Positions 35,635 to 48,597 of a stretch of DNA of 64,000 nt are shown here, piece by piece. A model generated the notes under the pieces. The model saw only the letters and a list, made by a program, of their open reading frames with translations. It was not told the origin of the DNA and did no database searches. This DNA is from Saccharicrinis fermentans DSM 9555 = JCM 21142 (GTDB taxonomy: Bacteria > Bacteroidota > Bacteroidia > Bacteroidales > Marinilabiliaceae), in contig NZ_KI912107.1 of assembly GCF_000517085.1 (NCBI RefSeq), positions 4,337,980 through 4,401,979 of the forward strand, given 5' to 3'. The position numbers were made by a program, and so were the translations under genes. The first letter of the stretch is position 1, and each line of letters opens with the position of its first letter.

Positions 35635-37110
35635 ATGGCTAATTATTTTAATACATTACCGTTACGTGAACAATTAAACCAACTAGGTGTATGTGAATTC
35701 ATGGATAGCTCAGAATTTGCCGATGGAGTAGAGAAGCTAAAGGGCAAAAAAGTAGTGATTGTTGGTTGTGGAGCACAAGGTCTTAACCAGGGTCTTAACA
35801 TGAGAGATTCAGGATTAGATGTTTCCTACACATTACGCGAATCGGCCATCAAAGAGCAACGTCAATCATGGAAAAATGCCACAGAAAACAATTTTTCAGT
35901 TGGCACCTATGAAGAAATGATTCCAACGGCCGACATGGTAGTAAACCTTACACCAGATAAACAACACACGAATGTGGTAAAAGAAGTCATGCCATTGATG
36001 AAACAAGGAGCCACCCTATCATACTCACACGGCTTCAATATTGTTGAAGAGGGAATGCAAATAAGAAAAGACATCACGGTGATTATGGTAGCTCCTAAGT
36101 CACCTGGTTCTGAAGTACGCGAAGAATACAAAAGAGGCTTTGGTGTTCCAACGCTCATAGCCGTTCACCCCGAAAATGATCCCAATGGAGATGGGCTTGA
36201 AATAGCAAAAGCATACGCAGTGGCTACAGGTGGGCACAAAGCCGGGGTCTTACGCTCTTCATTCGTTGCTGAGGTAAAATCTGATTTAATGGGTGAACAA
36301 ACCATACTCTGTGGATTATTGCAGACAGGTTCCATTCTTTCGTTCAACAAAATGGTTGAAAAAGGAATCGATAAAGGATATGCCTCCAAATTAATTCAAT
36401 ACGGCTGGGAAGTAATCACCGAAGCATTAAAAATAGGTGGTATTACCAATATGATGGATCGTCTATCCAATCCTGCTAAAATAGAAGCTTTTAAAATAGC
36501 TGAAGAACTAAAAGTCATTATGCGGCCACTGTTTCAAAAGCACATGGATGATATTATGAGTGGAGCATTTTCTTCTACCATGATGGAAGACTGGGCCAAT
36601 GGAGATAAAAACCTATTGGGTTGGAGAGCCGAAACAGGCGAAACTGAATTTGAGAAAACACCGGCTGGAGATGTTGAGATCAGTGAACAAGAGTATTTCG
36701 ACAACGGTACCCTAATGGTTGCCTTTGTTAAATCAGGTGTGGAGTTGGCCTTTGAAACAATGACAGAAGCAGGTATCAAAGAAGAAAGCGCATATTACGA
36801 ATCATTACACGAAACACCTTTGATTGCCAATACTATTGCACGCAAAAAACTGTTCGAAATGAATCGCGTTATTTCAGATACAGCTGAATATGGCTGTTAC
36901 CTGTTTGACCATGCTTGCAAACCACTACTGGCTGATTTTATGAAAAAAGTAGAAACCAATGTCATTGGTAAAAACTTTAACGAAGGACTACAAGCCAGTG
37001 TTAGCAATAAGGAGTTGGTAGAAGTAAACGAAGCAATCCGATTCCACGATGTGGAAATGGTGGGTGCAGAGCTACGCGACGCAATGACCGCCATGAAAGC
37101 AATTATCTAA
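35635..37110 (+). CDS. ilvC: Ketol-acid reductoisomerase, class II (long form)
   Basis: It converts acetolactate and acetohydroxybutyrate to the dihydroxy acids of the Val/Leu/Ile pathway with NADPH and Mg2+. The 491-residue product is the long E. coli-type enzyme: NADPH site [20 protein letters not shown] (GCGAQG 44-49), [20 protein letters not shown], and the duplicated C-terminal knotted domain. It ends at a hairpin, so it is transcribed apart from the ilvD-leuB operon downstream although it serves the same pathway. Confidence 0.97.
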
Positions 37111-37128
37111 AGGTTACAATGAATACAC

Positions 37129-37164
37129 AAACCCTGTTTTGATGATGAGATCGAAACAGGGTTT
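37129..37164 (+). terminator. Hairpin after ilvC
   Basis: A perfect 11-bp stem AAACCCTGTTT / AAACAGGGTTT (37129-37139, 37154-37164) with a 14-base loop. The T tract after it is short, so termination may be partial. Confidence 0.7.
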
Positions 37165-37468
37165 CATTTATCCAAACTATTGAAAAAAAATAGGAGTTTT
37201 TCATGAAAAGGATGGGTGAAAAAAATAATACTTTTTTGAATTATTGGTTTATTTATTCCATTATTAAAGAGCTTTCTTTTTTGCATAAAAATGACTTTTG
37301 TCATGTGTTAAAAACCGCATCATCAGGGCGCTAAACAGCATTTAAAGACATTGCATAAACATGCATGGAACGCACTTGAAAATGGAAAAATATACAATTC
37401 AATGTCGAAATTGCTTGAAACGTGGCGATAAGAGAGTAAGATCAGATGCATAAAATTGCGTTATTTTT
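37165..37468. other. Intergenic region between ilvC and the ilvD leader
   Basis: About 300 AT-rich bases with no recognised gene. A 43-codon frame at 37203-37334 exists but has no family likeness and no support. Confidence 0.5.
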
Positions 37469-37498
37469 TTTGAGGATTGAAAAAAAACGCTACATTTG
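37469..37498 (+). promoter_or_regulatory. Promoter of the ilvD-leuB operon
   Basis: TTTG (37469-37472), 18-bp spacer and TACATTTG (37491-37498) fit the Bacteroidota consensus. The predicted start near 37505 lies about 25 bases before the leader peptide ATG. Confidence 0.8.
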
Positions 37499-37529
37499 TA
37501 ATCGTTGGTGTCAACAAAAGCAAAACGAA

Positions 37530-37595
37530 ATGAATTATATTTTATCACTCATTCTCATTAACGTCATTCTCTTGGTCATTACCAAGCGAACGTGA
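37530..37595 (+). CDS. Ile/Leu/Val-rich leader peptide (attenuation control)
   Basis: A 21-codon frame whose product contains 5 Ile, 5 Leu and 2 Val (run INVILLVI at residues 10-17), 12 of 21 residues being the end products of the operon. It begins about 25 bases after the predicted transcription start and ends 40 bases before a terminator hairpin. This is the design of ilv/leu attenuator leaders in enterobacteria: when charged branched-chain tRNAs are scarce, the ribosome stalls in the leader and the terminator does not form. Too short for normal gene calling. The role is inferred from composition and position; no homologue is cited. Confidence 0.82.
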   Translation: MNYILSLILINVILLVITKRT

Positions 37596-37606
37596 GGATG
37601 CTGTGC

Positions 37607-37633
37607 ATAAAATAATCATATAGGATATTTTAT
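37607..37633 (+). promoter_or_regulatory. Hairpin between leader peptide and attenuator terminator
   Basis: ATAAAATA (37607-37614) can pair with TATTTTAT (37626-37633), an 8-bp A/U-only stem with an 11-base loop, two bases before the terminator. It could be a pause or competing structure. A clear antiterminator pairing was not found by eye. Confidence 0.5.
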
Positions 37634-37635
37634 AT

Positions 37636-37672
37636 AGGCCTTTCTCACAATGTTGAGGAAGGCCTTTTTTTT
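37636..37672 (+). terminator. Attenuator terminator of the ilvD-leuB operon
   Basis: Stem AGGCCTTTCTCA (37636-37647) with TGAGGAAGGCCT (37654-37665), 12 pairs including one G-U, loop of 6, then a continuous T run. It lies between leader peptide and ilvD, so it must be bypassed for the operon to be expressed. Confidence 0.88.
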
Positions 37673-37704
37673 ATTTGGGATGTTCAACAAAATTTAAGCA
37701 TGCC

Positions 37705-37740
37705 CCATGACCATTGAAAGAAAATTATAAACATATGAAA
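37705..37740 (+). repeat. Conserved 5' block, copy C (before ilvD)
   Basis: CCATGACCATTGAAAG followed by AAAATTATAAACATATGAAA closely matches the block in front of leuB (47506-47544) and the orphan copy at 55216-55253. Confidence 0.65.
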
Positions 37741-39561
37741 CACAAATTAAGAAGTGCGACAACAACAGAAGGCCGAAGGATGGCTGGAGCACGAAGCTTG
37801 TGGAGGGCAAACGGAGTTAAAGAAGAACAATTCGGAAAACCTATGATTGCGATTGTTAATTCCTTTACCCAATTTGTTCCAGGTCATGTACATTTGCACG
37901 AGATAGGACAAGAGGTTAAAAAACTAATTGAAGCCCAAGGTTGTTTCGCGGCCGAATTTAATACGATCGCAGTGGATGATGGCATAGCCATGGGGCACGA
38001 TGGTATGTTGTACTCTTTACCTTCACGCGATGTCATCGCCGATAGTGTTGAATACATGTGTAATGCGCACCGTGCCGATGCCATGGTATGCATCAGTAAT
38101 TGCGATAAAATTACCCCCGGCATGTTAATGGCTGCCATGCGTTTAAATATTCCGGCCATATTTGTTTCCGGAGGTCCAATGGAAGCAGGAAAAGTAGGTG
38201 ATAAGGCACTTGATTTGGTCGACGCCATGGTAATGGCAGCAGACGATAACGTTTCTGACGAAGAGGTAAGTGCCGTAGAAGAAAACGCATGCCCAACTTG
38301 CGGATCTTGCTCAGGCATGTTTACAGCCAACTCCATGAACTGCTTAAATGAGGCCATCGGACTAGCTTTACCTGGCAATGGAACAATCGTTGCCACTCAT
38401 GCCAATCGAAAACATCTGTTTGAGAGAGCTGCCAAAATAATTGTAGAAAATACTTACAAGTACTACCGAGACGGAGATGCTTCCATATTACCGCGTAATA
38501 TAGCTACGTTTCAAGCCTTTACAAATGCCATGACGTTGGATGTGGCCATGGGAGGTTCAACAAACACTGTTCTTCATATTCTGGCCATTGCCCACGAAGC
38601 CGGTGTCAACTTTACCATGGATGATATTGATCAGATATCCAGAAAAACGCCTGTACTATCAAAGGTAGCACCTAACTCAGATTACCACATTGAAGATGTA
38701 AACCGCGCAGGAGGTATATTAGGTATATTGGCAGAATTAGATAGAGCAGGACTATTAGACCATAATGTATCCAGAGTAGATGGTTTAACATTAAAACAAG
38801 CGGTTGACAAATACGATGTAACCAAGCCTTCTATTCCAGAAGATGTAAAAGATATATACACCAGTGCCCCCGCAGGTATTCGCAACCTAAAAATGGGGTC
38901 ACAAAAAACACATTATGCACAACTCGACCTAGATAGAGAAAGAGGTTGCATACGGTCTGTTGAAAATGCTTACAACAAAGATGGAGGATTAGCTGTTCTT
39001 AAAGGAAATATTGCAGTAGATGGCTGTGTTGTAAAAACAGCAGGTGTAGACGAATCTATTTTTATATTTAAAGGGAAAGCCAGGGTCTATCAATCTCAGG
39101 ATGCCGCTTGTGATGGTATATTATCGGGAGAAGTAAAGGCAGGAGAAGTGGTTGTGATCATATATGAAGGCCCCAAAGGAGGCCCAGGTATGCAAGAGAT
39201 GCTCTACCCTACTTCATACATCAAATCGCGTCACCTAGGTGAAAAATGTGCTTTGATTACGGATGGAAGGTTTTCGGGCGGAACATCTGGTTTATCAATC
39301 GGACATGTATCTCCAGAAGCTGCAGCAGGCGGTAACATTGGATTGGTACAAACAGGCGATGAAATAGAGATCAATATTCCCCAACGATCAATCAACGTAT
39401 TGGTCAGCGATGAGGAATTGACAGTCCGTAGAAAAAAAGAAGAAGCAAAAGGAAATAATGCATTTATGCCCGAGCCTCGTGAGAGACAGGTTTCTAAAGC
39501 TTTAAAGGCATATGCACATTTAGTAAGTTCTGCCGATAAAGGGGCAGTAAGAATAATATAG
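37735..39561 (+). CDS. ilvD: Dihydroxy-acid dehydratase
   Basis: An iron-sulfur enzyme that dehydrates dihydroxy acids to the keto-acid precursors of Val, Leu and Ile. The 608-residue product has the cluster cysteines in [10 protein letters not shown] (C123) and [18 protein letters not shown] (C186/C189/C192 region). The frame is open to a TTG at 37714, but ATG at 37735 begins at the usual place ([20 protein letters not shown]). First structural gene after the attenuator; ilvB follows after 107 bases. Confidence 0.96.
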
Positions 39562-39668: not shown

Positions 39669-41402
39669 ATGGAACCACAAAGCCAATTACTCATGGAAAA
39701 GAACAAGAACGCGAAAGAGAGAATTTCCGGTTCAGAAGCAGTGCTTCGGTCATTATTATGTGAGGGTGTGGATTTAATTTTTGGATATCCTGGAGGCGCC
39801 ATCATGCCAGTATATGATGCCCTTTACGATTATCAAGATAAACTGAACCATGTACTCACTCGCCATGAACAAGGAGCCGTTCATGCAGCCCAAGGATTCG
39901 CACGAGTTACAGGCAAAGTGGGCGTCTGCTTTGCCACCTCAGGTCCCGGAGCCACCAATACGGTAACCGGAATAGCGGATGCAATGATCGATTCTACCCC
40001 ACTGGTAGTGATCACTGGTCAGGTAGCATCACCCCTGCTGGGCACTGATGCTTTCCAAGAGATCGATGTACTGGGTATCACCCAACCTATTACCAAGTGG
40101 AATTATTTGGTAAAAACAGCAGAGGAGATACCTGAGGCTATCGCGAAAGCATTTTATATTGCAGCCACCGGCCGACCAGGACCTGTGGTGATCGACATCA
40201 CAAAAGATGCTCAGTTTGGTGAAGTGGAATTCAACTACCAAAAGGTAAAACATATTAGAAGCTATACTCCTGTTCCACTCACAAAACCGGATTCTATTAT
40301 GGATGCGGCTGAGATCATCAATTCTGCCAAGAAACCTCTTGCGCTCATTGGCCAGGGCGTAATCCTAGGTCACGCTGAAGAAGAGCTGAAAGCATTTTTA
40401 GATAAAACAGGTATTCCGGCAGCCTGGACCTTGTTGGGACTATCGGCCATGCCCTCAGACTACGAATTAAATGTGGGTATGTTAGGCATGCATGGAAACT
40501 ATGGTCCCAATGTAAAAACCAACGAATGTGATGTATTGATTGCCATCGGTATGCGATTTGACGATAGGGTTACTGGTGATGTTAACTCCTATGCCAAACA
40601 AGCCAAAGTCATACATCTTGAAATAGACCCCGCGGAGGTGAATAAAATCATAAAGGCAGATGTGGCTGTTTTAGGAAGTGTAAAAGATACATTACCTGCA
40701 CTCACAAAAGAAGTCAATGGAAATGCATATCCTGAATGGTTATCGGAGTTTAAAGCCTGTCATAAAATTGAAAACGAAAAGGTGATTGCCAATGAAGTTT
40801 TTCCAACACAGAAAGGATTAACCATGGGCGAAGTGGTTCATAAGGTATCCAAAGCCTTTGATGACGATGCAATTCTAGTAACGGATGTGGGGCAACATCA
40901 AATGATGGGCTCACGCTACTTTAACTTTAAACGGACCAGAAGTAATGTCACATCCGGCGGATTAGGAACCATGGGTTTTGGTCTTCCTGCTGCATTAGGT
41001 GCCAAACTGGGTGCCCCGGATCGCGATGTATGTGTGTTTATTGGTGACGGTGGTTTTCAAATGACCATTCAAGAGTTGGGAACCATCTTTCAAACGAAGG
41101 CTGCAGTAAAAATCATTGTACTGAACAACAACTTCTTAGGTATGGTACGTCAATGGCAAGAACTGTTCTTTGATGGACGATATGCATCAACAGAATTGGT
41201 GAACCCTAATTTTCAGATGATTGCCAATGGCTTTGGAATTAAAAGTGCCTTAGTGGACTCGAGAGAAAATTTGGATGCAGCCATTGATAAAATGGCCAAA
41301 CATGAAGGGCCATTCTTCCTGGAGGTGAAAGTTGAAAAAGAAGGTAATGTATTCCCAATGGTTCCGGCTGGCAGTTCCGTATCCGATATACGTTTAGAGT
41401 AG
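39669..41402 (+). CDS. ilvB: Acetolactate synthase, large (catalytic) subunit
   Basis: A ThDP- and FAD-dependent enzyme that condenses pyruvate with pyruvate or 2-oxobutyrate, first common step to Val/Leu/Ile. The 577-residue protein shows the catalytic glutamate region LTRHEQGAVHAAQGFARVTG, TSGPGATNTVTGIADAM, and the ThDP motif GDGGFQMTIQELGT followed by VLNNNFLGMVRQWQ. It partners with IlvN, whose gene starts 32 bases later. Confidence 0.97.
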   Translation: MEPQSQLLMEKNKNAKERISGSEAVLRSLLCEGVDLIFGYPGGAIMPVYDALYDYQDKLNHVLTRHEQGAVHAAQGFARVTGKVGVCFATSGPGATNTVTGIADAMIDSTPLVVITGQVASPLLGTDAFQEIDVLGITQPITKWNYLVKTAEEIPEAIAKAFYIAATGRPGPVVIDITKDAQFGEVEFNYQKVKHIRSYTPVPLTKPDSIMDAAEIINSAKKPLALIGQGVILGHAEEELKAFLDKTGIPAAWTLLGLSAMPSDYELNVGMLGMHGNYGPNVKTNECDVLIAIGMRFDDRVTGDVNSYAKQAKVIHLEIDPAEVNKIIKADVAVLGSVKDTLPALTKEVNGNAYPEWLSEFKACHKIENEKVIANEVFPTQKGLTMGEVVHKVSKAFDDDAILVTDVGQHQMMGSRYFNFKRTRSNVTSGGLGTMGFGLPAALGAKLGAPDRDVCVFIGDGGFQMTIQELGTIFQTKAAVKIIVLNNNFLGMVRQWQELFFDGRYASTELVNPNFQMIANGFGIKSALVDSRENLDAAIDKMAKHEGPFFLEVKVEKEGNVFPMVPAGSSVSDIRLE

Positions 41403-41434: not shown

Positions 41435-41989
41435 ATGCAACAAGAATTCACAATTACCATATTTTCCGAAAACCACGTAGGTCTGCTCAACCAGATAACT
41501 ACAGCCTTTACCCGTCGTAGCATCAATATTGAGAGTTTAAACACCTCAGAATCATCACTTGAAGGAATTCATAAATTTACCATTGTGGTATTCACCACAC
41601 GCGAACAAATGGATAAATTGGTCGGACAACTGGAAAAAAAGATTGACGTACTCAAGGTATTTGTATTTACCAACGACGAAATCATTCACCAAGAGCTTGC
41701 TTTATACAAAGTACCAACAGAAGCCTTACTAAATGGAAATGAGATTGAGCAAATCGTCCGTAACTATGGAGCCCAAATCATGGAAGTAACACCAGAATAT
41801 ACGGTGATACAAAAAACAGGACACAAGGCAGAAACACAAGAACTATTTGTTAAGCTAGATAAATACGGAGTACTTCAATTTATTCGGTCTGGTAGAGTGG
41901 CCATTACCAAGCTAAGAACCGAACTTCTCGAAAAATACCTAAAGAAACTTAGGACAGAAAATAAAATTAGAGGTATAGAAACATTTTAA
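41435..41989 (+). CDS. ilvN: Acetolactate synthase, small (regulatory) subunit
   Basis: The regulatory subunit that binds valine and stimulates IlvB. The 184-residue protein has the N-terminal ACT domain (about 4-78; FTITIFSENHVGLLNQITTA, SINIESLNTSESSLEGIHKF) and a C-terminal domain (LALYKVPTEALL, GRVAITKLRTELLEKYL). Length resembles the long IlvH/IlvN type. Placed directly after ilvB as usual. Confidence 0.95.
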   Translation: MQQEFTITIFSENHVGLLNQITTAFTRRSINIESLNTSESSLEGIHKFTIVVFTTREQMDKLVGQLEKKIDVLKVFVFTNDEIIHQELALYKVPTEALLNGNEIEQIVRNYGAQIMEVTPEYTVIQKTGHKAETQELFVKLDKYGVLQFIRSGRVAITKLRTELLEKYLKKLRTENKIRGIETF

Positions 41990-42044: not shown

Positions 42045-43541
42045 ATGAGCAATAAAATTTATATTTTCGACACCACCTTGAGAGATGGGGAGCAGGTCCC
42101 CGGTTGCCAGTTAAATACTATTGAAAAGATAGAAGTAGCTAAGCAACTGGAAAAACTGGGTGTTGACGTCATAGAGGCCGGGTTTCCAATTTCAAGTCCC
42201 GGCGACTTTAATTCGGTTGTAGAGATTTCAAAGGCGGTCAGTAATCCCACTATATGCGCTTTAACACGAGCTGTTAAAAAAGATATTGAAGTGGCTGCCG
42301 AGGCCCTTAAATTCGCAAAAAGGGGTCGTATCCATACAGGTATCGGAACATCGCCTTATCATATTTACCAAAAATTAAACTCTAATCCAGAGGAAATTAT
42401 AGAACGTGCCGTTGCGGCAGTCAAATATGCCCGTCAGTTTGTGGATGATGTGGAGTTTTATGCAGAGGATGCCGGACGTAGTGAAAACGAATATTTAGCA
42501 CGTGTAATTGAAGCTGTGATTGCAGCAGGAGCCACAGTGGTAAATATACCCGACACAACAGGATATTGCTTACCTAAAGAATACGGCGAAAAAATTGCAT
42601 ACTTGGTAAATCATGTACCCAATATCGATCGTGCCATCATCTCAACGCACTGTCACAACGACTTGGGTATGGCCACCGCAAATACCTTAGCTGGTATAGT
42701 GAATGGTGCCCGACAAGTGGAAGTAACGCTCAATGGACTGGGAGAACGAGCTGGTAATACAGCCCTGGAAGAGGTAGTAATGGCCCTACGTAGCCACAAA
42801 GACCTCGACTATGAGACAGGTGTTGACACCAAGCAAATCATCAAGACCAGTAAGTTGGTTTCTACCTTAATGCGTATGCCTGTTCAGGCCAACAAAGCCA
42901 TCGTTGGACGTAACGCATTTGCTCATTCTTCAGGTATACACCAGGATGGTGTACTAAAAAACCGTGAGACATATGAGATCATAGATCCCGCTGATGTAGG
43001 GGTAAAAGAATCCAGCATTGTACTAACCGCACGAAGCGGAAGAGCGGCCCTCAAACACCGCCTCGAAGTACTTGGATATAAGTTAGACAAAGACAAGCTA
43101 GACCATGTCTATAAGAACTTTTTGGTATTGGCCGATTCAAAAAAGGATATCAGTGATGAAGATATAGAAGTACTGGTTGGCCATGAGAAGAAAGAAGAAC
43201 GCGTCCTGAAATTAGATAATTTTCAAGTGATATGTGGAAAGTCATGCATTCCATCGGCCACAGTTACCATTAACCATAACGGAACAATCATGACGCACAA
43301 TGCCATCGGTAATGGACCTGTGGATGCTGCTTTTTCGGCCATTAAAACCATGCTTCAAGTAGAAGATGCTGTACTAGAAGAATACCTGGTACAGGCTGTT
43401 ACCAGAGGATCTTCCGAAATAGGAAAAGTACATATTCAACTATCCAAAGATGGAAGAACGGTTCATGGCTTCGGTGCTAATGTGGACATACTTACAGCTT
43501 CTGTCTGGGCCTATTTGGATGCGCTTTCAAAAATAATATAA
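42045..43541 (+). CDS. leuA: 2-isopropylmalate synthase
   Basis: First committed step to leucine: 2-oxoisovalerate plus acetyl-CoA. The 498-residue protein has the metal-binding and catalytic [33 protein letters not shown], the zinc-binding [14 protein letters not shown] and [18 protein letters not shown]. The C-terminal allosteric LeuA dimer domain (about 385-498; [24 protein letters not shown]) is complete, so leucine feedback is expected. leuC follows after 105 bases. Confidence 0.96.
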
Positions 43542-43646: not shown

Positions 43647-45044
43647 TTGGCAGGGAAAACACTTTTCGACAAGATTTGGGATATGCACGAAGTGAAGACT
43701 ATCGAGGATGGTCCTTCCGTATTGTATATCGACCGCCATTTGGTTCATGAAGTAACCAGCCCGCAGGCATTTGCAGGGTTAAAGGCAAGAGGAATTAAAG
43801 TATTCAGACCGCAAAACACCTTTGCTACACCTGATCACAACATTCCAACAATCAACCAGCATCTTCCCATTGCAGATGAGATTTCACGTTTTCAAGTGGA
43901 TACTTTAACAAAGAACTGCGAAGATAATGCGGTAACGCTGTTTGGTCTGGGACATCCTAAAAATGGCGTTGTACATGTAATTGGACCAGAGAATGGTATC
44001 ACACAACCTGGTATGACCATTGTTTGTGGAGATAGCCATACCTCTACCCACGGCGCTTTTGGTAGTATTGCTTTTGGAATAGGAACATCTGAAGTTGAAA
44101 TGGTACTTTCTACACAATGTATCATGCAGCCTCGTCCTAAAACCATGAAGATTAATATTGATGGGAAACTAACTGACGGAGTCACAGCTAAAGATCTTGT
44201 TTTATATGTAATTTCTAAACTAACAACCGGTGGTGGGACTGGTTACTTTGTTGAATTTGCTGGTTCAGCCATTCACAGCTTATCAATGGAAGGCCGTATG
44301 ACCGTTTGTAACATGAGCATTGAGATGGGCGCCCGTGGTGGATTAATTGCACCCGACGAAAAAACCATTGAATATGTAAAAGGTCGCGAGTACGCCCCCA
44401 AAGGTGAAGAGTGGGATAAGGCTGTTGCTAAGTGGCGCAAATTAGTAAGTGATGAGGATGCTCAATTTGACAAAGTGTACAACTTTGATGCTGCTGATAT
44501 CGAACCCATGATTACTTATGGCACAAACCCAGGAATGGGAGTAGGTATCACGCAAAATATTCCAACATTGGATGAGGTTGAAAAATCATCCCAAAAAACA
44601 TATTTAAAATCACTTGAGTACATGGGCTATGCCCCCGGAGAAGTGATGCTTGGAAAAAAAGTAGATTGGATCTTCGTAGGTAGTTGTACCAATGGACGCA
44701 TAGAGGATTTAAGGGCATTTGCACACGCCGTAAAAGGTAAAAAGAAAGCAGAAGGCCTTACTGCATGGATCGTTCCTGGTTCACATCAAGTAGAAGATCA
44801 AGCCATTGCTGAAGGACTGAAAGACATCCTTGAAGAGGCCGGTTTTGAATTACGTCAACCGGGCTGCTCGGCTTGTTTGGCTATGAACGATGATAAGGTG
44901 CCAGCAGGAAAATATTCGGTGGCAACAAGCAACCGTAACTTCGAAGGCCGTCAGGGACCTGGTTCCAGAACATTATTGGCAAGTCCATTGACTGCTGCAG
45001 CCTGTGCTGTTACCGGAGTAATAACTGATCCTCGAACTTTATAA
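43647..45044 (+). CDS. leuC: 3-isopropylmalate dehydratase, large subunit
   Basis: An aconitase-family enzyme that isomerises 2- to 3-isopropylmalate with LeuD. The 465-residue product has the cluster cysteines in [15 protein letters not shown] and [11 protein letters not shown], and [16 protein letters not shown] near the start. The start is TTG at 43647, giving [12 protein letters not shown], which lines up with the normal LeuC beginning; the first ATG would remove a conserved segment. leuD starts 18 bases after. Confidence 0.96.
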
Positions 45045-45062: not shown

Positions 45063-45647
45063 ATGGCAATAGATAAATTTGTAACATTGGAGTCAACATA
45101 CGTGCCTCTTCCCATTGAGAATGTGGATACCGACCAAATTATTCCGGCCCGTTTCCTAAAAGCAACCACCAAAGAAGGCTTTGGCGATAATTTATTTGCT
45201 GACTGGAGGTACAATAAAGATGGATCTCCTAAGCCTGATTTTGTATTGAATAACCCCAAATATTCAGGTGAAGTGTTAGTGGCAGGAAAAAACTTTGGGT
45301 CAGGATCAAGCCGCGAACATGCCGCATGGGCCGTTCATGGATACGGCTTTAAAGTGGTAGTATCCAGCTTTTTTGCCGATATCTTTAAAAACAATTCTCT
45401 CAATAACGGTATATTACCGGTAGTAGTTTCTGAAAGTTTCTTGGCTGAGTTATTTGCTGCTGACGAAAACAATAAGGTGATTGTAAATTTAAAAGATCAA
45501 ACAATTACCAACACAGCATTGGGTAAATCCGAGTCTTTTGAAATTAATGGCTATAAGAAAAATTGCCTATTAAATGGTTATGACGACATTGATTATCTGA
45601 TTAATTCAAAAGAAGAGATAGAAGCTTACGAGCAAAATAGGGGTTGA
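45063..45647 (+). CDS. leuD: 3-isopropylmalate dehydratase, small subunit
   Basis: The swivelling-domain partner of LeuC. The 194-residue product shows [40 protein letters not shown] (substrate loop) and [19 protein letters not shown], all diagnostic. Length is normal for bacterial LeuD. The stop is followed by a hairpin at 45659. Confidence 0.96.
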
Positions 45648-45791: not shown

Positions 45792-47360
45792 ATGAAGGTA
45801 AACATGAAAATTGAAGTAATGGATACAACACTCCGAGATGGGGAACAAACCACCGGAGTTTCATTTAACGAAGAAGAAAAACTGGCAATGGCCGGTCTGT
45901 TGATTGAAGAAGTAAAAGTAGATCGGATTGAAGTAGCTTCTGCCAGGGTATCAGATGGTGAATTTGCGGCTGTTAAACGAATTACTGAGTGGGCAAAAAA
46001 AAGAAACTGCCTGGAGAAAATTGAGGTACTGGGGTTTGTTGATGGAGATATTTCTTTGAAATGGATTCATGATGCCGGAGCAAAAGTAATCAACCTGCTT
46101 ACCAAAGGCTCTTTAAAGCACGTACAAGGTCAACTCCATAAAACACCGGAAGAACACATGGCAGATGTACAAAAACTGGTGAAAACAGCTGGTAAAATGG
46201 ACATGCTGGTAAATGTTTATCTGGAAGATTGGAGCAATGGAATGATTTCTTCTCCGGAATATGTTTATTTCGTGATTGGTGAATTACAAAAAATGAATGT
46301 AAAACGCATAATGCTGCCGGATACTTTGGGGGTGCTCAATCCTGATCAAACCTTTCAGTTTTGCACCGACATGGTAACCCGCTTTCCCGATGTCCATTTT
46401 GATTTTCACGCCCATAACGATTATGACATGGCCGTAGCCAATGTTTTTTCCTCATTAAAAACAGGAATCAAAGGTATCCATACCACCGTAAACGGCCTGG
46501 GAGAAAGAGCAGGTAATGCACCTTTGGCCAGTGTAATCGGTATTTTGAATGACCACCTTAAACTGGAAAATAAGCTCAATGAATCAAACATCACTAAGGT
46601 AAGTAAGGTCGTTGAACAACTATCTGGATTACGAATCCCGGAGAATCAGCCCATTACAGGATATAATGTATTTACACAGTGTAGTGGTATTCATGCTGAT
46701 GGCGATAGCAAAGATAACCTATATTTCAATAACCTGATGCCTGAACGCTTTGGCAGAAATCGTAAATATGCCTTAGGGAAAACCTCCGGCAAAGCTAATA
46801 TTAAAAAGAACCTGGAGGAACTCGGTATAGAACTGGATGCTGAGGCCATGAAAAAAGTAACACAGAGAGTCATTGCATTGGGTGATAGAAAAGAGATGGT
46901 TACCATTGAGGATTTACCCTTTATTATTTCTGATGTATTAAAAAGTTCATCTGTTAAAGATGCCATCAAAATAAGAAACTATAACCTTTCTCTTGCCCAT
47001 GATTTACGTCCTTTAGCTTCCATTAGTCTGGAGATTAATGGTAAACGATATGACGAAACGGCCGTAGGTGATGGTCAGTATGATGCATTTATGAAGGCCT
47101 TATGGCGTATTTACAATAAACTGAAAAAAGTACATCCTGTGTTGGTAGATTACTGGGTGAGTATTCCCCCTGGAGGAAAAACTGATGCACTGGTAGAAAC
47201 AATGATAACATGGGATTACAAAGGTGTCGAAATTAAGTCGAGAGGCCTTTCTGCCGACCAGACAGAGGCTGCCATAGAAGCCACCATAAAAGTACTAAAT
47301 GTTATTGAAGAAGGTACCCTGACACGGCAAGCCGACTGGAAAGAAAAAATGGCAAAATAG
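45792..47360 (+). CDS. LeuA/CimA-family synthase, putative (R)-citramalate synthase
   Basis: A second acyl-transferring DRE-TIM enzyme of 522 residues. Seen: [20 protein letters not shown], zinc-site [39 protein letters not shown], and a C-terminal LeuA-dimer allosteric domain (about 405-515). It differs clearly from leuA 2 kb upstream (GEQTTGVSF versus GEQVPGCQL) and is the CimA-like branch common in Bacteroidota, where it would join pyruvate and acetyl-CoA to give citramalate, the threonine-independent route to isoleucine. Because no ilvA is in the window this fits, but a specialised isopropylmalate synthase cannot be excluded. The start may be ATG 45792 or 45804. Confidence 0.8.
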   Translation: MKVNMKIEVMDTTLRDGEQTTGVSFNEEEKLAMAGLLIEEVKVDRIEVASARVSDGEFAAVKRITEWAKKRNCLEKIEVLGFVDGDISLKWIHDAGAKVINLLTKGSLKHVQGQLHKTPEEHMADVQKLVKTAGKMDMLVNVYLEDWSNGMISSPEYVYFVIGELQKMNVKRIMLPDTLGVLNPDQTFQFCTDMVTRFPDVHFDFHAHNDYDMAVANVFSSLKTGIKGIHTTVNGLGERAGNAPLASVIGILNDHLKLENKLNESNITKVSKVVEQLSGLRIPENQPITGYNVFTQCSGIHADGDSKDNLYFNNLMPERFGRNRKYALGKTSGKANIKKNLEELGIELDAEAMKKVTQRVIALGDRKEMVTIEDLPFIISDVLKSSSVKDAIKIRNYNLSLAHDLRPLASISLEINGKRYDETAVGDGQYDAFMKALWRIYNKLKKVHPVLVDYWVSIPPGGKTDALVETMITWDYKGVEIKSRGLSADQTEAAIEATIKVLNVIEEGTLTRQADWKEKMAK

Positions 47361-47448: not shown

Positions 47449-47544
47449 ATGAAACCAGCCATGAGAGTGATCTCTCACACAGGTGAATGATTATCACGGC
47501 GAGTTCCATATGACCATTAAGAAACAAATTATAAACATATGAAA
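47449..47544 (+). repeat. Degenerate ~95-bp repeat, copy A (before leuB)
   Basis: It starts ATGAAACCAGCCATGAG and ends at the leuB start codon. It aligns along its length with copy B at 55157-55253; substitutions fall like codon changes (both read V/I-I/V-S-H-T/A-G at the same place), but copy A has indels and an early stop. Its 3' block matches the sequence before ilvD. Confidence 0.65.
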
Positions 47545-48597
47545 TTAAATATTGCGGTATTAGCCGGTGATGGGATAGGTCCCGAAATAGTAACACAAGC
47601 ACAAAAAGTATTGGATGCCATTGCAGCCAAGTACCACCATGAAATAATATACTCGCCAGCATTGGTAGGAGCTACTGCCATCGACCAGCTTGGTGACCCC
47701 TACCCGGAAACCACCCATGAAGTATGTATGAATTCGGATGCGGTTTTATTTGGAGCTATCGGTGACCCTAAGTTTGACAATGACCCCAAGGCGAAAGTAC
47801 GTCCTGAACAAGGACTTTTGGCAATGCGTAAAAAACTGGGTTTATATGCCAACATTCGTCCTGTTGCTACCTTTCCATCCTTATTGGACAAGAGCCCCCT
47901 GCGTCTAGATATTGTAGAGGGAGCAGATATGGTTGTTGTTCGTGAGTTAACCGGTGGTATCTATTTTGGCGAGAAAGGTCGCTCCGAAGACCTCAAAAAA
48001 GCATTTGATACCTGCACATATACCACAGAAGAAATTGAACGCATTTTAAAATTGGCCTTTTCTTATGCTGGTAAAAGAGACAAACGCTTAACGGTAGTTG
48101 ACAAAGCAAATGTGTTAGCTACCTCACGCCTATGGAGAGAGACTGCACAAGCCATGGAACCGGCCTATAAAGACATTGAAGTTGACTATATGTTTGTAGA
48201 CAATGCAGCCATGCAATTGATTCAATGGCCTAAGAAATTTGATGTGATAGTGACTGAAAATATGTTTGGAGATATCATCAGTGATGAAGCTTCTGTAATT
48301 ACTGGTTCTCTTGGTTTATTGCCATCAGCTTCGGTAGGCGTACACACTTCTGTATTTGAGCCCATACATGGTTCTTACCCACAAGCAGCTGGTAAAGACA
48401 TCGCCAATCCGGTAGCCACCGTTCTTTCTGCAGCTATGTTATTGGAATCTCTTGATTTATTGGAAGAAGCTCAATTGGTACGTGAAGCCGTGAATAAATC
48501 TTTGGAAGAAGGTATCGTAACCGAAGATATCAACAAAGAAAAACCTTATAAAACCTCAGAGGTAGGTGATTGGTTGGCAAAATATATTGCTGGATAA
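47539..48597 (+). CDS. leuB: 3-isopropylmalate dehydrogenase
   Basis: It oxidatively decarboxylates 3-isopropylmalate to 2-oxoisocaproate with NAD+. The 352-residue protein has [40 protein letters not shown] (substrate arginines), [15 protein letters not shown] and [19 protein letters not shown] (metal-binding aspartates), and [14 protein letters not shown] for NAD. Last gene of the operon; a terminator follows 20 bases on. Confidence 0.97.

Follow-up and report, generated by a model that had tools for sequence, protein, structure and literature searches.

The region upstream of ilvD in the window (the whole 64,000-nucleotide stretch of Saccharicrinis fermentans DNA that was analyzed) is very probably, at roughly nine chances in ten, a classical ribosome-mediated transcription attenuator of the ilv-leu operon. 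An earlier sequence-only reading had proposed this mechanism, and it is now supported by an order-wide combination of leader, antiterminator and terminator, by changes on both sides of the pairings, by leader codons that match the operon, and by a depletion of Shine-Dalgarno-like sequences.

We propose that RNA polymerase initiates approximately 25 nt upstream of the leader ATG, probably near 37503-37506, and that a ribosome, recruited without Shine-Dalgarno pairing, then translates a leader rich in Ile, Leu and Val codons. If any one of the three charged tRNAs were short, the ribosome would stall over segment 1, leaving segment 2 available for pairing with segment 3; the terminator would then not form and the operon would be transcribed. 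If all three charged tRNAs were ample, the ribosome would reach the stop codon, which is inside segment 2, and would cover that segment. Segments 3 and 4 could then form the terminator, and transcription would stop before ilvD.

Organization of the leader region and operon

The elements of the attenuator and the genes of the operon are listed in Table 1. The promoter picked out by the sequence-only reading is borne out as one of Bacteroidota type, and its pair of motifs matches what we take to be the consensus of that phylum, TTTG/TAnnTTTG. Among the 108 ilvD loci with a leader, 105 have enough upstream DNA to be searched for this promoter, and 89 of these contain TAnnTTTG 10-80 nt upstream of the leader ATG, compared to 6.1 expected from shuffled sequences. 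The median distance from the end of the motif to the ATG is 28 nt. A sigma-70 scan, whose scope does not extend to Bacteroidota-type promoters, gave 4 sites versus 2.8 expected, which is no excess. A second promoter between the terminator and ilvD was considered and rejected because TAnnTTTG is absent from 37666-37735; this motif represents the Bacteroidota promoter type only, and a promoter of another type could still be present there.

The gene order first read, ilvD-B-N-leuA-C-D-cimA-leuB, agrees with the NCBIfam assignments, with cimA named by similarity from a score below the cut-off. ilvD starts at the ATG at 37735, and the start given in the list of open reading frames (37714) is a TTG further upstream. 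The gap between ilvN and leuA is 55 nt in this genome, with leuA under the one shared leader. ilvC is located just upstream of the leader region on the same strand (35635-37110; NCBIfam).

Table 1. Elements of the proposed attenuator and genes of the ilv-leu operon
Feature	Position	Strand	Description
Promoter	37469-37498	+	TTTG 37469-37472, 18 nt, TACATTTG 37491-37498; basis: sequence
Leader peptide frame	37530-37595	+	MNYILSLILINVILLVITKRT and stop; ATG to TGA, 21 codons, 12 Ile/Leu/Val; kept in relatives
Segment 1	37546-37571	+	1a CACTCATTCTC 37546-37556; 1b CATTCTC 37565-37571; both complementary to segment 2
Segment 2	37591-37603	+	CGTGAGGATGCTG; contains leader stop TGA 37593-37595; antiterminator pairing with segment 3
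Segment 3	37636-37648	+	terminator 5' arm 37636-37647; antiterminator partner TTTCTCAC 37641-37648
Segment 4	37654-37672	+	terminator 3' arm 37654-37665; T run 37665-37672
ilvD	37735-39561	+	first controlled gene; NF009103 1070.2 bits (cut-off 710), TIGR00110 802.2 (618.15)
ilvB	39669-41402	+	NCBIfam
ilvN	41435-41989	+	NCBIfam
leuA	42045-43541	+	NCBIfam
leuC	43647-45044	+	NCBIfam
leuD	45063-45647	+	NCBIfam
cimA-like gene	45792-47360	+	best NCBIfam model 641.3 bits, below cut-off 950; name by similarity
leuB	47539-48597	+	NCBIfam

Conservation of the leader frame

The leader frame is present as first described, in both length and codon content (Table 1). When the 450 nt preceding ilvD were shuffled 2000 times, only one shuffle produced a short frame in which 10 or more of 12 consecutive codons were Ile, Leu or Val. 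We collected ilvD upstream regions from 100 genomes, the window's own included, of which 77 had a match (78 places), and from named contigs, where the best 80 of 593 loci were used. After leaving out 6 of these 158 upstream regions, each shorter than 200 nt, a leader with at least 9 of 12 consecutive Ile, Leu or Val codons was found in 67 of 77 regions from relatives' genomes (own included) and in 33 of 75 from the named loci, compared to 5 of 152 opposite strands and 0.77% of 6080 shuffles. The named loci with leaders include those of Saccharicrinis, Bacteroides, Phocaeicola, Alistipes, Labilibaculum and Marinifilum. The leader sequences vary among relatives and the codon class stays; conserved codon content in the upstream regions of related genomes had been proposed as a check. 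For a broader leader set we kept 108 of the 158 regions (score of at least 8, TTG starts excluded); Ile, Leu and Val are all found in 105 of these leaders.

Loss of the frame, or of its Ile/Leu/Val codons, from homologous loci that keep the terminator had been named as evidence that would count against attenuation. The leader is kept in the window's family, and leaderless loci lie farther off: no leader was found at ilvD loci of rumen Prevotellaceae/Bacteroidaceae such as L076, L078, L082 and L083, nor at those of Desulfobulbaceae and other Deltaproteobacteria (e.g., L015, L025, L027, L029). Among 40 distant ilvD upstream regions (L234-L273) examined with a strict terminator rule, some have an Ile/Val/Leu-rich frame followed by a terminator (e.g., L246, L247, L249, L260, L264-L266, L272, L273), and many have no such combination. 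Separately, in other classes of the phylum (L205-L233), where ilvD is 51-55% identical over the aligned part, several Ile/Val/Leu-rich frames end 100-300 nt upstream of ilvD, mostly without a terminator in the strict scan. Some loci (L058, L061, L062 (about 9.6-10.0 kb) and L164) have tandem attenuators, with two leader-terminator units in series upstream of ilvD; the proximal leader is almost all Ile and Val in L058, L061 and L062.

The terminator and its alternative pairing

The 12-bp terminator with its T run is also where it was first placed. It is the sole terminator-like site in 37100-37800 (shuffles, 0.4), and its 12 pairs extend from 37636 to 37665. In a 42-sequence alignment of the window's family, the terminator pairs are formed in 91.9% of cells, and 63 cells have both sides changed compared to 20.8 in shuffles. 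A terminator follows 103 of the 108 leaders; this count comes from a looser version of the terminator finder, as the strict version missed several. The fold of 37500-37740 is better than that of 200 of 200 shuffles (z -4.28), and the A/U hairpin seen at the outset is present, forming the outer portion of a long hairpin with the leader inside it.

The sequence-only reading had found no clear antiterminator, and this part of it is overturned: there is an antiterminator, made by segment 2 and the 5' terminator arm. In the 42-sequence alignment, the antiterminator pairs are formed in 85.3% of cells, compared to 35.0-53.2% when the segments are slid out of register. Five pairs are changed on both sides, compared to 2.4 in shuffles, with 6 of 500 shuffles reaching five. 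The covariation score of 0.073 is above that of every shuffle and below that of one slid version (0.078 at -3), and in further pair types the antiterminator does not exceed shuffles (192/500). Both segments have changed jointly in L166 (AATTGAGG with CTCAAT), L054 (CGGGAGAGAGG with CCTTTCTCCCG) and L018 (GGTAGAGGAAGG with CCTTTCTCTACC).

The antiterminator duplex, formed by the spacer and the terminator arm, is also stronger than expected from dinucleotide shuffles at most of the 103 ilvD loci that have both leader and terminator (p≤0.05 in 83, p≤0.01 in 62). The window's own duplex, taken alone, is borderline (p=0.055), and those of its congeners give p=0.12 (L090) and p=0.105 (L093). L053 and L152 give p=0.70 and p=0.83.

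T-boxes and other Rfam cis-regulatory families could likewise regulate such operons. We rejected a T-box, a riboswitch or another known leader family here, as Rfam gave no match at the gathering score across the whole window and none in 20 further loci, the genome's own trpE (L276) and hisG (L277) loci among them. A covariance model built for the family (R1) gave 56 matches at E≤0.01 in 395 genomes of the phylum. Several weak matches were upstream of unrelated genes (e.g., L190, L194, L196); thus R1 does not discriminate cleanly beyond the family, and we worked with the upstream regions of orthologues instead.

Predicted switching and the untranslated state

We modeled the switch by masking everything upstream of a point 13 nt past the A-site codon's start and folding the RNA between there and the terminator loop; this thermodynamic model does not include kinetics. 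For the window, the predicted probability of the antiterminator is 0.97-1.00 for ribosomes stalled at codons 3-18 and 0.88-0.89 at codons 19 and 20, and it falls to 0.16 at codon 21 and to 0 at the stop codon. Across the 103 loci, a stall at some Ile, Leu or Val codon is predicted to give antitermination in all 103, and a ribosome at the stop codon to block it in 80 and to fail to do so in 23. Segment 2 overlaps the footprint of a ribosome at the stop codon in 101 of the 103, an overlap that random placement already produces in 78%.

The prediction for RNA without a ribosome differs between the window, where the probability of the antiterminator is 0.10, and most other loci, 75 of 103 of which are predicted to antiterminate. 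A complete three-state switch is predicted in only 22 of 103, which suggests that a protector hairpin between segments 1 and 2 is not general. It is therefore possible, although we would not favor it, that attenuation operates without a protector, so that read-through is the untranslated default and the sole role of the leader ribosome is to bring about termination when amino acids are sufficient; the default would be off in the window's species and on in most of its relatives. Against this, the prediction comes from a thermodynamic model, and within the window's family the protector pairing is formed in 74.1% of cells compared to 34.8-49.5% in slid controls. The RNAalifold consensus retains the terminator and, from the full 1:2 structure, only a helix of 4 pairs joining 1b to 2.

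Leader codons match the operon

leuABCD makes leucine and CimA feeds isoleucine synthesis, and a leu-cimA unit thus supplies Leu and Ile, not Val. At some loci leuA is in a separate operon: leuA is followed by leuC, leuD, a cimA-like gene and leuB in L009, L026, L058, L061 and L062, and by leuC, leuD and cimA in L050, where the locus then ends. No cimA match was found at the leuA locus of L066. We located 44 starts among 46 leuA matches, and 25 of the 44 have their own leader by a rule combining score and position (L400, L401 and L431 are doubtful and were retained). These 25 leaders have means of 4.40 Ile, 4.64 Leu and 0.64 Val, and Val is absent from 15. In contrast, ilvD leaders have a mean of 3.84 Val, and Val is absent from only 2 of 108 (Mann-Whitney p 2.7e-12, relatedness ignored). 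As a separate observation, ilvD and leuA share a contig in one locus (L388, genome G009), with leuA 5.8 kb downstream and preceded by its own Leu/Ile-rich frame, MTKVNSLYILSILLCILLWVRD, possibly an internal attenuator.

Other amino acid operons have leaders of their own kind. Upstream of hisG, 28 of 30 loci have a frame in which some stretch of 8 residues includes 3 or more His (0 of 30 on the opposite strand; 30 of 49 matches had loci), and upstream of trpE, 21 of 28 have one with 3 or more Trp in such a stretch (0 of 28). For trpE, 46 matches gave 29 loci besides the genome's own, one of which was dropped for its short upstream region. The genome's own copies, counted apart in both cases, have MIKFTHHHGHHFNLP and a stop upstream of hisG (L277) and MTKIMNNTWWWHWLFSKEKR and a stop upstream of trpE (L276), each with a terminator behind it. 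Compared with mononucleotide shuffles, neither of their antiterminators reaches significance (p 0.16 for his, 0.11 for trp). The his and trp leader loci of relatives are L298-L356. In addition, a candidate Thr/Ile-rich frame, MVYKLTHITSNITSAITPWGV, lies upstream of thrA (L278), the gene for aspartate kinase-homoserine dehydrogenase, in the same genome, with no terminator evident by eye. In L182, L185 and L204, all from one other family, Thr/Ile-rich frames also lie upstream of a gene judged by eye to be aspartate-kinase-like.

The conserved arrangement leaves little room for a passive terminator, one that ends ilvC transcription or acts as a constitutive brake, next to an incidental frame, with the operon driven from elsewhere or by read-through. 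The position of ilvC, upstream on the same strand, and the borderline antiterminator of the window taken alone would suit such an arrangement. However, a promoter motif is conserved between ilvC and the leader, no TAnnTTTG lies between the terminator and ilvD, and leader and antiterminator are both conserved, and we consider a passive terminator very unlikely. It is also highly improbable that the frame encodes a hydrophobic small protein with its own function, such as a membrane-active peptide, whose transcript the terminator simply ends: the peptide is short and hydrophobic like some small membrane peptides, but within the same architecture the leader of hisG has runs of His, that of trpE has runs of Trp, and that of leuA has Leu and Ile with little Val. 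Moreover, a pairing links segment 2 to the terminator arm, and leader sequences diverge while retaining their codon class.

Relation to known attenuators

Attenuation by leader peptides is textbook knowledge for ilvGMEDA, ilvBN and leuABCD of enterobacteria. Compared by architecture, those systems resemble that in the window in having a leader with regulatory codons, an alternative antiterminator and an intrinsic terminator before a biosynthetic operon. They differ in that Shine-Dalgarno-like sequences are depleted before the leaders described here, that a protector hairpin is not general among these loci, and that one leader in the window serves a fused ilv-leu-cimA operon.

The start of the leader had been taken to lack a Shine-Dalgarno sequence. 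In line with this, only 2 of 107 loci have a Shine-Dalgarno-like 4-mer within the 17 nt preceding the leader, compared to 9.4 expected when the same bases are shuffled. Bacteroidia ribosomes do not recognize Shine-Dalgarno sequences, according to the accessible part of one account (PMC9976891).

The mechanism is already known, and it has already been proposed in the phylum. The available sections of one report give strong clues for leader-peptide attenuation before amino acid operons of Flavobacterium psychrophilum (PMC9723704), which shares with the window its phylum, the proposed mechanism and amino acid biosynthesis as the function of the operons; those sections name no ilv operon or antiterminator, unlike the case described here. 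Leader-like short frames are mentioned for Bacteroides thetaiotaomicron, the example in the accessible excerpt being a hypothetical gene (PMC7366714). In Corynebacterium, the ilvBNC attenuator (the ilvB-II motif) is described in the available portion of PMC10272879, which also cites leader formation without a ribosome binding site. By that description it is like the window in its branched-chain-rich upstream frame, terminator and antiterminator, and it differs in phylum and first gene. The available portions of PMC4833913, PMC2965389, PMC8305728 and PMC9413887 contain no Bacteroidota ilv attenuator. The accessible parts of the open-licence literature searched contained neither the window's element and its antiterminator nor an account of its spread or its operon-matched codons.

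On balance, we favor the view that Bacteroidota have a repertoire of ribosome-mediated attenuators (ilv, leu-cimA, his, trp and perhaps thr) with leaders that lack a Shine-Dalgarno sequence and 5' untranslated regions of approximately 25 nt. The first ribosome would have to load and pace RNA polymerase within approximately 100-150 nt, and the untranslated state would be "on" in most genera because no protector hairpin has been kept. Ribosome-mediated attenuation requires that the leader ribosome act while RNA polymerase is near. The retention of attenuation for several Bacteroidales pathways with Shine-Dalgarno-depleted leaders makes transcription-translation coupling in the phylum directly testable. 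There is also a prediction at the level of codons: ilv operons should respond to Ile, Leu and Val, and separate leuA-cimA operons to Leu and Ile and hardly to Val, which fits the roles of leuABCD in leucine synthesis and of CimA in isoleucine synthesis.

A dispersed repeat at the ilvD start codon

The 33 nt ending at the ilvD start codon (37706-37738) are part of a repeat of approximately 90 nt. An upstream query has 46 matches in its own genome, itself counted, and similar copies are found in 26 of 61 genomes, 25 from the window's family (own included) and one other. Rfam gave no match in 18 loci with copies. We examined 33 other distinct copies from the genome itself and its relatives, in some of which the frame is cut by the end of the locus. 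In 23 of the 33, the ATG that ends the repeat begins a frame that runs for 60 codons or more, and in 7 it begins a mini-frame of 10-20 codons like MKRAMRINSHTGG, which is the next tandem unit. The element is a dispersed repeat that supplies start codons.
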